The position numbers were made by a program, and so were the translations under genes. DNA of 64,000 nt, from contig NZ_CP063164.1 in assembly GCF_014931715.1 (NCBI RefSeq), positions 558,001-622,000 on the forward strand, in the 5' to 3' direction. Shown one piece after another: positions 14,363-17,779 of the stretch. The stretch comes from Sulfurovum indicum (GTDB lineage: Bacteria; Campylobacterota; Campylobacteria; Campylobacterales; Sulfurovaceae). The notes beneath the pieces were generated by a model. The model saw nothing but the letters and a program-made list of their open reading frames with translations. It ran no database searches and was not told the DNA's origin. The stretch's first letter is position 1, and each line of letters begins with the position of its first letter.

Positions 14363-15277
14363 ATGGTAGCGATCGACCTGGGCTCCAATACATTGCGGGT
14401 ACTGGAGTATGACTGCAAAAGCAAACGTGCAACTGCTGAGTTTGAGAAGATTGTCAAAACGGCTGACAAACTGGCATCGACAGGAGTTATTGACCATACA
14501 GCAGTTGACAGGGTTATCTATGCAATCAAGGAGGCACAGGCTTGCATCGATTTTCAGGGGCAGCCTGTTAAAGCTGTGACAACGGAAGCGGTACGCAGAG
14601 CCATGAATGCCAAAGAGGTCTTGGATCGTATTGCCAAAGAGACGGGTGTTGTGTTTGAGATCATTGACGGGGAGAGAGAGGCAGCACTGACACTCAATGC
14701 GGTAAAATATCGTTTGCAAAAACTCTGTTTTGCTTCAGAGAAATTCGTACTTGCAGATATTGGCGGAGGGTCGACGGAGATTATTTTTATTTACAACAAC
14801 CGTGTCTTTATGAAAAGTTTTCCGGTAGGCATTGTGACCATAGCGCAGGAGTATAAAAGTCTTGAGGCCATAGAAACTGCTTTACCCCAGGTGATGCTTC
14901 CTATGCAAATGTTCGCAGCCGAAGTCTATGCCACACAGGGAAATGTAGAGACATTTGTTGCAACAGCAGGTACCCCTACAACGTTAGCAGCTATGAAGCT
15001 AGGACAGTGTTATGCTACCTATGATGCAGGGAAGATAAACGGTACGACTTTAAAAAAAGATGAACTTGCTTTCTATTTGGAAAAGCTGCTTGCTATGCCG
15101 TTTGAGAAGAGAGAAGAGATGGTCGGTGTCGGCAGAAGCGACCTTATAGCAGCCGGTATTCTTATTTTCAGGTACTTGTATGTGCTGTTGGAAAAAGAGG
15201 AGTGTATTGTTGTAGATGACGGTTTGCGTGAAGGTGTTGCTCTGGAAAGTTGTCAAAATAACTCCTACACCGGTTAG
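14363..15277 (+). CDS. ppx: Ppx/GppA family exopolyphosphatase
   Basis: A 304-residue protein with the ASKHA-type N-terminal VAIDLGSNTLRVLEYD and the second phosphate-binding loop VLADIGGGSTEIIF. The family hydrolyses polyphosphate or the 5'-phosphate of pppGpp; which one cannot be told. The length equals the core domain alone, without the HD-like C-terminus of E. coli Ppx, as in other Campylobacterota. The ATG has only a weak upstream GGTGG as ribosome site. Confidence 0.85.
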   Translation: MVAIDLGSNTLRVLEYDCKSKRATAEFEKIVKTADKLASTGVIDHTAVDRVIYAIKEAQACIDFQGQPVKAVTTEAVRRAMNAKEVLDRIAKETGVVFEIIDGEREAALTLNAVKYRLQKLCFASEKFVLADIGGGSTEIIFIYNNRVFMKSFPVGIVTIAQEYKSLEAIETALPQVMLPMQMFAAEVYATQGNVETFVATAGTPTTLAAMKLGQCYATYDAGKINGTTLKKDELAFYLEKLLAMPFEKREEMVGVGRSDLIAAGILIFRYLYVLLEKEECIVVDDGLREGVALESCQNNSYTG

Positions 15278-15350
15278 ATCAAAGAAGAAGATAGACAAGA
15301 AAAAGTGCGTCTAAGGTTTACAAGCTTGGGAGACTTGCCTACCGGTGTAG
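15265..15350. repeat. Inverted repeat around the ppx stop codon
   Basis: CTACACCGGT (15265-15274) and ACCGGTGTAG (15341-15350) are perfect 10-base inverted arms with 66 bases between. The left arm lies in the last ppx codons. It may be a 3' end structure; no U-run follows. Confidence 0.4.
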
Positions 15351-15380
15351 TGTCATTTTAGAGGTGTTATTTTCTAACAA

Positions 15381-15388
15381 GGGGGGGG
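15381..15388 (+). repeat. Run of eight G
   Basis: A G8 tract in the spacer between convergent ppx and the response regulator gene. It lies in no convincing reading frame and at no promoter of either neighbour. Confidence 0.9.
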
Positions 15389-15469
15389 ATATGTAGTTTT
15401 ATTCCACCTCTTACGAAGAAGTATAGTAGAAAAGTTTGTCACATTTTGTCAAAATAATTTTTTTTTAAA

Positions 15470-16159
15470 TTATTTTGTAATAAATATATATCCGGCACCG
15501 TAACTACTTTTTAAAACCTCTTTTGGAAGCTTTTGGCGAAGACGCTTAATAAGAGAAGTGACTGCATAAGAAGAGAAGTCGCGTTCAGGCTGGTCTTCAT
15601 AGATACAGTTATAAATATCGATAGCAGAAACTGTTTGATCCGTTTTTGAAATGAGAAGAGCAAGTACCTTTTGTTCTTTGGGTTTCAGTTGGATCTCTTT
15701 TTCTCCGTGAAAGAGTTTTCCTTTGATCTTGTCCCAGTAGTATCCCTCTTTTATCGGAATAAGGGAGCGTTCTTCTCTCAGTTCTTCTACAAGGGTGAAA
15801 AGCAGTTCTTTCAGGGTATTGCTCTGTACGGGCTTGATCAGATACTTCACAAGATTCAACTCTATTGCTTGCAAAAGTTTGTCTTTTTCCGAGTGGGCAG
15901 TGGTGATGATGATCTTGGTCTTCCGGTCTTTTTCCCTGATCTTTTTGATCAATGAGAGTCCATCTAAAAGTGGCATATGGATATCTGCGATGACTATATC
16001 AGGACCTTTTGTCAAATAAAGCTCATAAGCACTTTTTCCATTTTCAGCAGCATAGACATGTGTGAAGAAAAGCTGGAGGTACTCTATCATAGAATGCAGC
16101 AGTTTTGTTTCATCTTCTGCAATAAGTATGGAAATGTCCTCTATTTTAACAGTTTCCAT
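15470..16159 (-). CDS. OmpR-type response regulator
   Basis: A 229-residue two-domain regulator. The receiver (about 8-125) has the acidic pair ISILIAEDE, the phospho-acceptor Asp in VIADIHMPLLDG, the Thr in IIITTAH and the Lys in YLIKPV. A winged-helix DNA-binding domain (about 145-229) follows, with LKPKEQKVLALL and SLIKRLRQKLPKEV. Its start overlaps the end of the upstream sensor kinase by 14 bases, so the two form one operon and almost surely one signalling pair. Target genes cannot be inferred. Confidence 0.9.
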   Translation of the reverse strand: METVKIEDISILIAEDETKLLHSMIEYLQLFFTHVYAAENGKSAYELYLTKGPDIVIADIHMPLLDGLSLIKKIREKDRKTKIIITTAHSEKDKLLQAIELNLVKYLIKPVQSNTLKELLFTLVEELREERSLIPIKEGYYWDKIKGKLFHGEKEIQLKPKEQKVLALLISKTDQTVSAIDIYNCIYEDQPERDFSSYAVTSLIKRLRQKLPKEVLKSSYGAGYIFITK

Positions 16160-17669
16160 CTACTCGATCCAATATAATATGAAAGGCTGCACCTTTTGTA
16201 CGGTTTTCAACATCCAATCTGCCGCCCATATTTTTCTCTATGATCATTTTCGAGATATAGAGTCCCAGACCTGTACCCATAGATTTATGTTTGGTCGTGA
16301 AGTAGGGATCAAAGATCCGCTGCATATGCTCAGGTTCGATCCCCCCTGCATTGTCGCTAATGGTCAAAGTAATATTTCCATTATTTTTAGAGAGGGTGAC
16401 ATCAATTTCGGCATGGGCTGTCTTTCTTTCAACCAGTGCATCTTTTGCATTGGTAAGCAGGGCCATAACGACCTGGGTGTATTCATTCATATACCCTTTT
16501 ACATAGGCAGTGTCACGATATTCAAAATTAAGTGTGATACCGGCTTTTTCCAGGATTGGGTGCATAATGGTCAAAGCATGTTCTATCACATCCGATACAC
16601 TGAATATTGTTTTCTTTTTTTCTGGATGATAAAAACGCATAAAATCATCAATGGTTTTTGACATATACTGAATATTGTTCTCCATCTCTTCGAGTTTTGC
16701 AAGGAGTTCGGTACTCTCCAGTATCTGCATTTGGGATTTCTCTTTTAGAATGGAAAGAATAGTATTACTGATTGCCAAAGGCTGTCGCCACTGGTGGGCA
16801 ATATTCCCTATCATCTCACCTATATCTGCCATTTTTGCTTTCTGAAAGAGAAACTCCTCCTTCTCTTTCAGTGCATTCATTGATGCTTCCAGAGCCATAT
16901 CTTTTTGTTTCAGCGCTTCAATAGTATAAAGCAGTTCATGCCGGTACGCTTTTTCTATATAGAGTCCGCACTCGAGTGCTTTCATCTGTTCGATCAATGC
17001 AGGAATATGTCTCTTTTTGATGATAGAACCGTGTTGCGGTGCTATCATCTCTATATCGAGTGCTTCTATTTTGGTGAGTGCATAGTTGAAGATATCGCGG
17101 CTTGGCATATATTCTGCATGGAACTGTTTGGCTTTTTCAAAATAGTTGTCTCCTGCAAAAAATTCCCAGGATTCTTCTATCCCTCCAAAAATATCTCCGG
17201 AAAAGAGTGTTTTGGTTTTGGGTTCATAGGTGACAAAAGCACCAGGTGAGTGGCAGTAGGGGGTGGTAATGAACTTAAGTTCCAGATCGCCGCACTGCAG
17301 ACTATGATCATGTTTGTCTATTTCATAGTAGTCTGAGCGGATCAGGTAGTGTTTGACAAGCGGTACCATACGGGAATGTGTGATTACTTTCAGGTCACTT
17401 CTGTTGATAAGCTTTTCCATTTCAGGGACACTTGCGGCGAGGTCAGGGTCCTGATGATGGAGAATGATATATTTGATATGGTGCATATTGCTGATGGTAT
17501 TGATCTTTCGGACAACAGCATTGAATTCCAGCATGGAACCGGGATCAATAAGAATGGAGTTTTCTCCATTTTCAATGAAGTAGGGGTGACACTGGAACGG
17601 ATCATTGGGCAGATACATACCGACCCACCAGATCTCTTTGGCTATCTCTATTGCTTGTGTAAAATCCAT
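16146..17669 (-). CDS. Histidine kinase with metallo-beta-lactamase/di-iron-type (ODP-like) sensor domain
   Basis: A 507-residue soluble protein with no membrane segment. Residues 1-235 form a metallo-beta-lactamase fold of the flavodiiron type: HxDxD at 72-76, His140, Asp159 and His213 are placed to bind two metals. A coiled coil (about 240-285) leads to the phospho-acceptor box NIAHQWRQPL (His292) and an ATPase domain with LLTNAKDAL, DNAGG and GTGLGL. Flavodiiron-like domains without the flavodoxin part serve as oxygen/iron sensors in Treponema chemotaxis (ODP); by analogy this kinase may sense oxygen, NO or iron. ATG 17669 begins at the conserved domain; the frame is open 105 codons further into ilvB antisense. 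Confidence 0.8.
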   Translation of the reverse strand: MDFTQAIEIAKEIWWVGMYLPNDPFQCHPYFIENGENSILIDPGSMLEFNAVVRKINTISNMHHIKYIILHHQDPDLAASVPEMEKLINRSDLKVITHSRMVPLVKHYLIRSDYYEIDKHDHSLQCGDLELKFITTPYCHSPGAFVTYEPKTKTLFSGDIFGGIEESWEFFAGDNYFEKAKQFHAEYMPSRDIFNYALTKIEALDIEMIAPQHGSIIKKRHIPALIEQMKALECGLYIEKAYRHELLYTIEALKQKDMALEASMNALKEKEEFLFQKAKMADIGEMIGNIAHQWRQPLAISNTILSILKEKSQMQILESTELLAKLEEMENNIQYMSKTIDDFMRFYHPEKKKTIFSVSDVIEHALTIMHPILEKAGITLNFEYRDTAYVKGYMNEYTQVVMALLTNAKDALVERKTAHAEIDVTLSKNNGNITLTISDNAGGIEPEHMQRIFDPYFTTKHKSMGTGLGLYISKMIIEKNMGGRLDVENRTKGAAFHIILDRVDGNC

Positions 17670-17779
17670 AGACAAAGTGTAGTAAAATAAGTGTAACTTT
17701 TTCCTGATTTCAATCAATGAATAGGTGTATTTGTTTCTTGTGCAGCATACAGTAAGTCCCACCTCTAATATTATTTTGC

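Follow-up and report, generated by a model that had tools for sequence, protein, structure and literature searches.

ODP (oxygen-binding di-iron protein) domains, soluble oxygen-sensing kinases, and OmpR-type two-component systems are already known. FixL/FixJ is one system in which a kinase with a cytosolic O2 sensor controls nitrate respiration or related genes. NreB/NreC of staphylococci is another, with a kinase whose cytosolic O2 sensor controls nitrate respiration (excerpt of PMC8139620), while ODPs of the Treponema denticola/Thermotoga maritima type are described as stand-alone proteins that are genetically coupled to a chemoreceptor modulating CheA (excerpt of PMC7666581). Among the regulatory RNAs of Campylobacterota, furthermore, the RepG small RNA of Helicobacter pylori targets a G-repeat (excerpt of PMC8295292). 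We here describe a locus of the sulfur-oxidizing marine bacterium Sulfurovum indicum in which an ODP-type domain forms the N-terminus of a predicted soluble histidine kinase, and in which three other Sulfurovum species have a single fusion protein. The stretch analyzed, called the window, comprises 64,000 nt of NZ_CP063164.1 (558,001-622,000; GCF_014931715.1), and positions are given in the window numbering; L and G numbers are our own labels for loci and genomes.

An ODP-type domain at the N-terminus of a soluble histidine kinase

Its domains and motifs mark the product of the gene 17669..16146 as a soluble histidine kinase whose N-terminus is an ODP-type domain, and the kinase pairs with an OmpR-type regulator encoded at 16159..15470:

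16146..17669, minus strand: ODP-type soluble histidine kinase, 507 aa (open reading frame (ORF) list, Pfam, structure-database sequence search, motifs)
16950..17669, minus strand: N-terminal ODP sensor domain with the metallo-beta-lactamase fold, residues 1-240 (Pfam, alignment, residue counts, model)
16149..16950, minus strand: helical linker (about 240-284), HisKA-type part (His292), and HATPase_c (Pfam, model, motifs)
15470..16159, minus strand: OmpR-type response regulator, 229 aa, its start overlapping the kinase stop (ORF list, Pfam)

The kinase frame runs from ATG 17669 to the stop at 16146; the ORF list gives a longer frame of 612 aa, and ATG 17669 was taken as the start because orthologues and the promoter support it. 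Pfam detected the ODP profile PF19583 (E 6.6e-62; 209.3 bits against a curated cut-off of 27.2), which has matches in 12 of 14 control genomes as well and hence is not specific to ODP proper, together with Lactamase_B (PF00753, E 3.7e-9) and HATPase_c (E 6.9e-21). The phospho-acceptor His and the N, G1, F, and G2 boxes of an orthodox histidine kinase were all read in the frame (IAHQWRQPL at 290, LLTNAKD at 404, DNAGGI at 439, FDPYFTTK at 453, and GTGLGL at 465). No membrane span was found in the kinase (top 19-residue hydropathy, 1.22), which rules out a membrane-bound kinase. Residues 240-284 of the linker were helical in the structure model, with low confidence. In the regulator, Response_reg (E 2.6e-24) and Trans_reg_C (E 4.4e-11) were detected, and the two genes overlap by 14 bases. 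The original prediction, made on this DNA from sequence alone, of a soluble histidine kinase next to an OmpR-type regulator is thus borne out by the 507-aa frame, its boxes, and the adjacent gene.

The putative metal ligands of the ODP domain are His72, Asp74, Asp76, His140, Asp159, and His213, alongside Gln212; the kinase has HHQDPDL at 71 and not the HxExDH motif of flavodiiron proteins. We aligned 114 ODP rows (113 distinct, the window having been entered twice) with seven local flavodiiron controls. Residue 77 was Leu, Ile, or Val in 113 of 113 distinct ODP rows, and His140, Asp159, Gln212, and His213 were equally invariant. His72, Asp74, and Asp76 were likewise present in all ODP rows, but these rows had been gathered by H.QDPD, so that only positions 77, 140, 159, 212, and 213 are independent of the selection. 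The controls had Leu212 in 7 of 7; they were chosen by H.E.DH, and their His is hence a selection criterion. The kinase therefore carries the ODP signature, namely H-x-D-x-D, His, Asp, and Gln-His, the second Asp not being followed by His. On this alignment, Leu at the final position of HxExDH is a signature of the ODP family and not a loss, because all 113 distinct rows have Leu, Ile, or Val there plus Gln212. Indeed, Gln at motif 5 is described to replace the third His of motif 2 in T. maritima ODP (excerpt of PMC7785958). A sensor that arose by decay of a flavodiiron site is ruled out, Leu at this position being the norm of ODPs.

By sequence, the closest solved structures were the ODPs of T. 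maritima and T. denticola, 6qrq (E 2.4e-22) and 6qnm (3e-20), with flavodiiron proteins coming later, from E 2.3e-10. An AlphaFold model of the kinase built from 24 sequences had a pLDDT of 73 and a pTM of 0.57, with ten-residue block means of 64-96 over residues 1-230 and 37-56 over the linker and HisKA. When the model was compared with known structures, the ODPs 6qwo (Z 28.4; 238 residues aligned, 2.6 A) and 6r9n (Z 27.4) were tied with flavodiiron proteins within 1 Z (VIA, Z 27.6). The metallo-beta-lactamase domain with HxDxD, His, Asp, and His that had been proposed for the kinase was thus found (HHQDPDL at 71, His140, Asp159, and Gln212-His213), and the proposal of an ODP-like sensor agrees with 6qrq and 6qnm outranking all flavodiiron proteins by sequence; the structure comparison that it called for ranked ODPs first but left flavodiiron proteins in a tie. 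Its argument for sensing from the Leu and the missing flavodoxin domain holds in one half: Pfam found no flavodoxin domain of the flavodiiron kind in the kinase, but the Leu, found in 113 of 113 ODP rows, is not a sign of decay.

Relatives were taken as the best 80 of at least 539 named relatives, 10 of which were checked by Pfam and the rest by BLAST or motif. Among these 80, the ODP domain was N-terminal to varied outputs: kinases with an adjacent regulator, PAS-kinases, hybrid kinases, GGDEF, GGDEF-EAL, SpoIIE, and a bare DNA-binding domain; L100 is an ODP frame of 268 aa without a further domain. The relatives, mostly from metagenome-assembled genomes (MAGs), belong to Sulfurovum, Sulfurimonas, other Campylobacterota, Spirochaetota, Pseudomonadota, Aquificota, Nitrospirota, Chloroflexota, and others, and among the matches listed, those nearest to the window kinase are from Sulfurovum. 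We also noticed that ODP is fused to a SpoIIE phosphatase domain in L104 and L108 (MAGs of Leptospiraceae and Magnetobacteriaceae), additionally with TPR in L104. Stand-alone ODP genes were seen singly in L045 and in tandem in L046 and L048, adjoining in all three a cluster that resembles, by reading, hybrid kinase, FIST-like, and receiver-HD proteins.

The pair collapsed into one protein in three Sulfurovum species

As judged from alignment and trees, the pair has collapsed at its own locus into one protein in three Sulfurovum species:

L062:7001-8062, L063:2866-3927, and L070:7001-8062: 353-aa fusion of ODP with a winged-helix DNA-binding domain, replacing the kinase and the regulator

The first 250-280 residues of the fusions are 67-75% identical to those of the kinase, and residues 244-353 are 56% identical to residues 117-229 of the regulator, with neither kinase nor receiver in the protein (Pfam was run on L062). 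The fusion genes adjoin ilvB and, in L070, where the contig reaches, also ppx. In the ODP tree, the fusions form one 100/100 clade within the Sulfurovum kinase clade (20 rows, 99/93), and in the tree of the DNA-binding domain, which has few columns, one 100/100 clade within the Sulfurovum regulator clade (21 rows, 92/93). The ratio of nonsynonymous to synonymous substitution (dN/dS) was 0.02-0.055 in the five computable comparisons out of six, with dS saturated, and both halves look to be under purifying selection. The FNR-type box described below is kept upstream of all three fusions, and the downstream repeat is kept after L062 and L070, the two with sequence available. Across the genus, 3 fusion genomes and 15 kinase genomes were counted among 78.

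Gene neighborhood

In most Sulfurovum loci read, the pair lies between ppx- and ilvB-like genes (named by reading), the exceptions being L041, which retains the ppx side only, and L059-L061, with neither side. A sensorless chemoreceptor was not found adjacent to the kinase, whose neighbors were read as ppx, ilvB, and the regulator. In Sulfurimonas-type loci, the pair ends an operon, norC-norB-nirS-cyt c-nirJ-nirF-nirE-kinase-regulator, with a gene for a small membrane protein first. NorC-like was named by reading; NorB-like is COX1 without an NCBIfam match; NirS and NirF-like are Cytochrom_D1; NirJ-like matches TIGR04051 at 384 bits, under its cut-off; and NirE-like is uroporphyrinogen-III C-methyltransferase. 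The end of nirE lies at most 150 nt upstream of the kinase in 20 of the 44 ODP-kinase loci among the best 80 named relatives, and in five NirS-positive loci without the kinase (L185-L189) a like operon stops at nirE. In a third context the neighbor is nrdD, recognized by Pfam NRDD in L078 and L080 and by similarity in L067 and L084.

In a phylum sample of 397 genomes, NirS was found in 23 of 24 kinase carriers versus 53 of 373 others (E up to 1e-45), and within the window's genus (78 genomes) in all 18 carriers (15 kinases and 3 fusions) versus 23 of 60 others (E up to 1e-30), counts that ignore phylogeny and include many incomplete genomes. The carrier G112 has NirS only as a partial frame (2.4e-31) and would fall out at 1e-45. 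The gene context favors a role in anaerobic or nitrogen-oxide respiration.

Promoters of the kinase gene and of nor-nir

Two promoter elements were located upstream of the kinase gene:

17704..17717, minus strand: FNR-type palindrome TTGATTGAAATCAG, centered near -41.5 of the putative transcription start (like palindrome in 17/18 Sulfurovum upstream regions)
17676..17681, minus strand: -10 TACACT, where most relatives have TATACT, 6 nt ahead of the ATG (upstream-region comparison)

Upstream regions were read for loci of the list up to L092. A palindrome of the TTGAY-N4-RTCA kind precedes the ODP gene in 17 of 18 Sulfurovum loci (ATGATTTTAATCAA in L056; none was found in L058), and each of the 17 lies exactly 36 nt ahead of a TATACT-like -10. 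This fixed layout is that of a class-II FNR-type promoter. The pattern is common in the window's genome, with 127 matches on both strands versus 40 in a reversed control, so that the box is weak by itself and the evidence lies in its fixed spacing. The -10 is 5 to 7 nt from the start codon in 18 of 18 Sulfurovum loci (6 nt in 13), a conserved spacing because of which the kinase mRNA is probably leaderless. The same genome encodes two Crp/Fnr-family proteins above the cut-off, one beside a nirE-like gene.

TTGAY-N4-RTCAA also occurs in the nor-nir promoters of the 19 loci examined (14 Sulfurimonas-type and 5 Sulfurovum, including the window's genome). Two further patterns might be regulator sites in nor-nir promoters, and both are a lead only. 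The block AAACTGTCATAATAC, which overlaps the -10 region, is in the Sulfurovum nor-nir promoters of 11 of 13 carriers and 1 of 5 non-carriers, or 13 of 13 and 1 of 5 with one A/G choice (23 loci entered, of which 5 were not located; L264 and L277 were left out as too short). TGTTWCR-N2-4-WGTTACA, a pattern picked post hoc, occurs in 6 of 9 kinase-positive Sulfurimonas-type promoters and in none of the 5 kinase-negative ones (p 0.03).

A direct repeat and a candidate small RNA downstream of the regulator

Directly after the regulator stop, a conserved TTTGACA-N3-TNTGACAAACT with a period of 10 bp is followed by TATACT:

15433..15453, minus strand: direct repeat TTTGACAAAATGTGACAAACT, candidate regulator-binding site (conservation, genus-wide and own-genome scans)
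15420..15425, minus strand: -10 TATACT of the putative RNA promoter (repeat-region comparison, consensus scan)
15260..15413, minus strand: candidate structured small RNA with a C-rich loop (alignment, covariation, covariance model, fold z)

From the position and conservation of the repeat, the OmpR-type regulator would be expected to bind it. We scanned 48 regions after regulators, corresponding to 33 distinct loci, covering regulators whose DNA-binding domain is at least 40% identical to that of the window. TGACA-N5-[TG]GACA was found by script in 21 of the 33, plus L055 (at 2805), which the script missed, as it may have missed others. The positive loci are Sulfurovum loci, the fusions L062 and L070, L059, L061, L078, L080, L084, and L068; in L067 a like repeat is visible in the alignment. 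Within the genus, the repeat occurs without mismatch in 12 of 18 carriers and 0 of 60 other genomes, and with at most one mismatch in 15 of 18 and 7 of 60. In L078, L080, and L084, the repeat lies between the regulator and nrdD, and a conserved leader containing a long inverted repeat (TTATGTCA..TGACATAA in L078 and L080) comes between it and nrdD.

When the window's own genome was scanned with at most one mismatch, two matches were found versus none in the reversed control: the exact one after the regulator and one with a single mismatch at 1911503-1911523. The latter lies upstream of a second operon, right beside an FNR-type box, TTGATATAAATCAA:

L223:6851-8434 (own genome 1909850-1911433): p113-p412 membrane-protein operon

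Neither p113 nor p412 has a Pfam or NCBIfam match; their island contains napA (TIGR01706) as well as nirJ- and nirE-like genes, both named by reading, and a NirDL-like gene (PF22451). In L304 (carrier G067) and L296 (G517), p113 and p412 are likewise preceded by the repeat with the box beside it; these loci were picked up because of a matching repeat pattern. A relative of p412 (46%) lies near the kinase-regulator pair in L068.

The candidate RNA would begin with a 5' hairpin, AGAGGUG/CACCUCU, that encloses the C-rich loop, followed by a long closing helix, CUACACCGGU/ACCGGUGUAG. The 3' arm of this helix runs antisense to the ppx-like ORF 14363..15277 at its end. Across 14 RNA sequences, 95.4% of cells pair. 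In helix 2, 7 of 10 pairs are changed on both sides (2 of 500 shuffles reach 7), and the cells with both-side changes number 23 versus 7.4 in shuffles (0 of 500 as high; at most 7 in slid structures). The fold z is -4.4, with 0 of 200 shuffles as low. A covariance model matches 15 of 18 carriers and 0 of 60 other genomes of the genus, including L055, a sequence outside the training set with 85.6 bits right after the regulator. Rfam gave no match up to E 1 in 14900..15700 of the window, and every reading frame on the RNA strand is interrupted. The RNA is probably made and may act by base pairing. On the G106 contig C27, L300 holds a second copy of the regulator end with the repeat and the RNA in the same genome, either a duplication or a contig-end artefact.

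Discussion

We consider it fairly probable that the locus encodes a cytoplasmic two-component system of anaerobic (denitrifying) metabolism with ODP as the input, the repeat as the operator, and the small RNA as the output. In this mechanism, the kinase gene would be expressed from the FNR-type promoter like the nor-nir operon, and the ODP domain would, by analogy with the Treponema and Thermotoga ODPs, bind two irons and an oxidant, O2 in an ODP being expected as a stable peroxo adduct. A change at the di-iron site would then travel through the helical linker and set the kinase/phosphatase balance of HisKA/HATPase, a step from metal state to kinase that we suppose because of published ODP work, as far as its excerpts go. 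The regulator would bind the TTTGACA repeats just downstream of its own gene, which would stand in for the -35 in the promoter of the C-rich-loop RNA, and in the window's genome also bind before the p113-p412 operon in the denitrification island. In the three Sulfurovum species, one deletion may have joined ODP to the DNA-binding domain of the regulator, which would have produced a one-component regulator acting on the same type of site. The ODP identity, the pairing, the Sulfurimonas-type nor-nir context, the boxes, the covarying helix, and the collapse are read from the sequences; the metal, the ligand, and the sign of the response are putative.

By analogy, the most likely signal would be O2, for which we see about an even chance, and NO would come next as a candidate of lesser weight; the iron state itself has only a slight chance. 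We place O2 first since both contexts, nir/nor and nrdD, consist of anaerobic genes; NO is close. More broadly, and tentatively, ODP may be a plug-in input module of anaerobic control in Campylobacterota, serving either a kinase and regulator that drive RNA/denitrification genes or a one-component di-iron transcription factor on the same operator; for this we are somewhat short of even confidence.

Several observations weigh against the proposed system. In the kinase itself, HisKA scored 23.4 bits, under the Pfam gathering score of 26.9, and the model is weak in the linker and HisKA. As to context, the NirS counts carry the limits stated above, six NirS-positive genomes of genus g18 have no kinase, the pair lies outside the nor-nir operon in the window's genus, and in L067, L078, L080, and L084 it lies beside nrdD and not nir, so that O2, and not NO, may be the common signal. 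The repeat coincides in part with a plausible sigma-70 -35 hexamer and was not found after 11 of the 33 distinct regulators (L058, L060, and nine Sulfurimonas-type); with up to two mismatches, which adds two matches, the own-genome scan gives 4 versus 3 in the reversed control; and G517 (75% complete) has the p113 site while no ODP gene was found there. As to the RNA, L058 (G528) has neither repeat nor RNA; helix 1 is almost invariant and hardly informative; further pair types (12 versus 13.5 shuffled) are the one of five covariation measures not above shuffles; and 14 of the 15 model-matched genomes contain training sequences, L055/G509 being the only independent find. The RNA model had no match in the Sulfurimonas-type and nrdD loci searched, L070 gave 20.8 bits (E 0.1), and a scan for targets complementary to the loop gave 11 matches versus 11 in the control.

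Denitrification genes are also O2-controlled, and gene context hence does not separate O2 from NO. The kinase might thus be a nitric-oxide sensor, with NO bound at the di-iron site and the system tuning nor/nir expression and NO detoxification, a serious possibility that we nevertheless do not favor. The place of the pair at the end of the nor-nir operon in Sulfurimonas-type genomes, the co-occurrence with NirS, the second repeat site in the denitrification island, and the NO binding of flavodiiron NO reductases would fit such a sensor; the nrdD context in four loci, however, fits O2 better, and characterized ODPs are described as oxygen (and iron) sensors (excerpts of PMC7666581 and PMC7785958).

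It is rather unlikely that the region after the regulator is a promoter with a good -35 plus an antisense/terminator end for ppx, with no regulated small RNA. A consensus scan does find TTGACA, an 18-nt spacer, and TACTAT there, the 3' arm of helix 2 is inside the end of the ppx-like ORF, and 14 of 15 model matches are training loci. Both half-sites are conserved, however, and not just one, and the repeat recurs before nrdD and upstream of p113, where an FNR-type box comes after it. Helix 2, which covaries, closes a long loop (some 65 nt in the window), which sets it apart from an intrinsic terminator, and the 5' hairpin begins at the expected +1 in 14 of 15 loci, L057 having an insert before it.

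That the ODP domain is still a catalyst (an O2 or NO reductase with a separate flavoprotein donor) whose turnover is read by the kinase appears very improbable: while the flavodiiron fold is shared (VIA, Z 27.6 versus 28.4 for ODP), Pfam found no flavodoxin domain, Glu and the last His of HxExDH are changed to Asp and Leu, and all 113 distinct ODP rows likewise lack this last His and have Gln212. Finally, it is scarcely credible that the 353-aa fusions arose from the two-gene form by misassembly or an artefactual frameshift, for although no more than 3 of the 78 genus genomes have them and the three named records are all MAGs, they come from three species, the two besides L070 being 90% and 86% identical to it, and have intact 353-codon frames of equal length with the same junction, their own 100/100 clade in both trees, and dN/dS of 0.02-0.055 where computable.

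Returning to the proposed ODP-input system, no report of an ODP kinase, its operator, its RNA, or its collapsed form was found in the open-licence literature searched, and the RNA downstream of the regulator is a candidate for a new one. A narrow literature search for the change of a two-component into a one-component system at its own locus returned nothing, which says little. If true, the fusions document a two-component system turned into a one-component regulator at its own locus, and the collapse is a natural experiment in which sensor and DNA-binding domain suffice alone; the fusions would also provide a small soluble protein for testing di-iron signaling.

Comparison with known systems

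With flavodiiron proteins (NO/O2 reductases), the window kinase shares the fold and the positions of His, Asp, and His, whereas Glu and the last His of HxExDH are replaced and the flavodoxin domain is absent. Kinases with NreB- and FixL-type sensors differ in that they use a [4Fe-4S] or heme PAS domain, and the window kinase would use a di-iron domain of the metallo-beta-lactamase fold. The candidate RNA is like RepG in being a putative regulatory RNA of Campylobacterota; it differs in having its C-rich loop in the 5' hairpin, and no sequence relation is claimed. Closest are the T. denticola/T. maritima ODPs (PDB 6qnm, 6r9n, 6qrq, and 6qwo), which share with the window kinase the domain family, the HxDxD..H..D..QH set, and, by analogy, probably cytosolic oxidant sensing upstream of a histidine kinase. 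Unlike these ODPs, the window ODP is fused to the HisKA-type kinase itself and is accompanied by an OmpR-type regulator, a candidate operator, and a candidate RNA.

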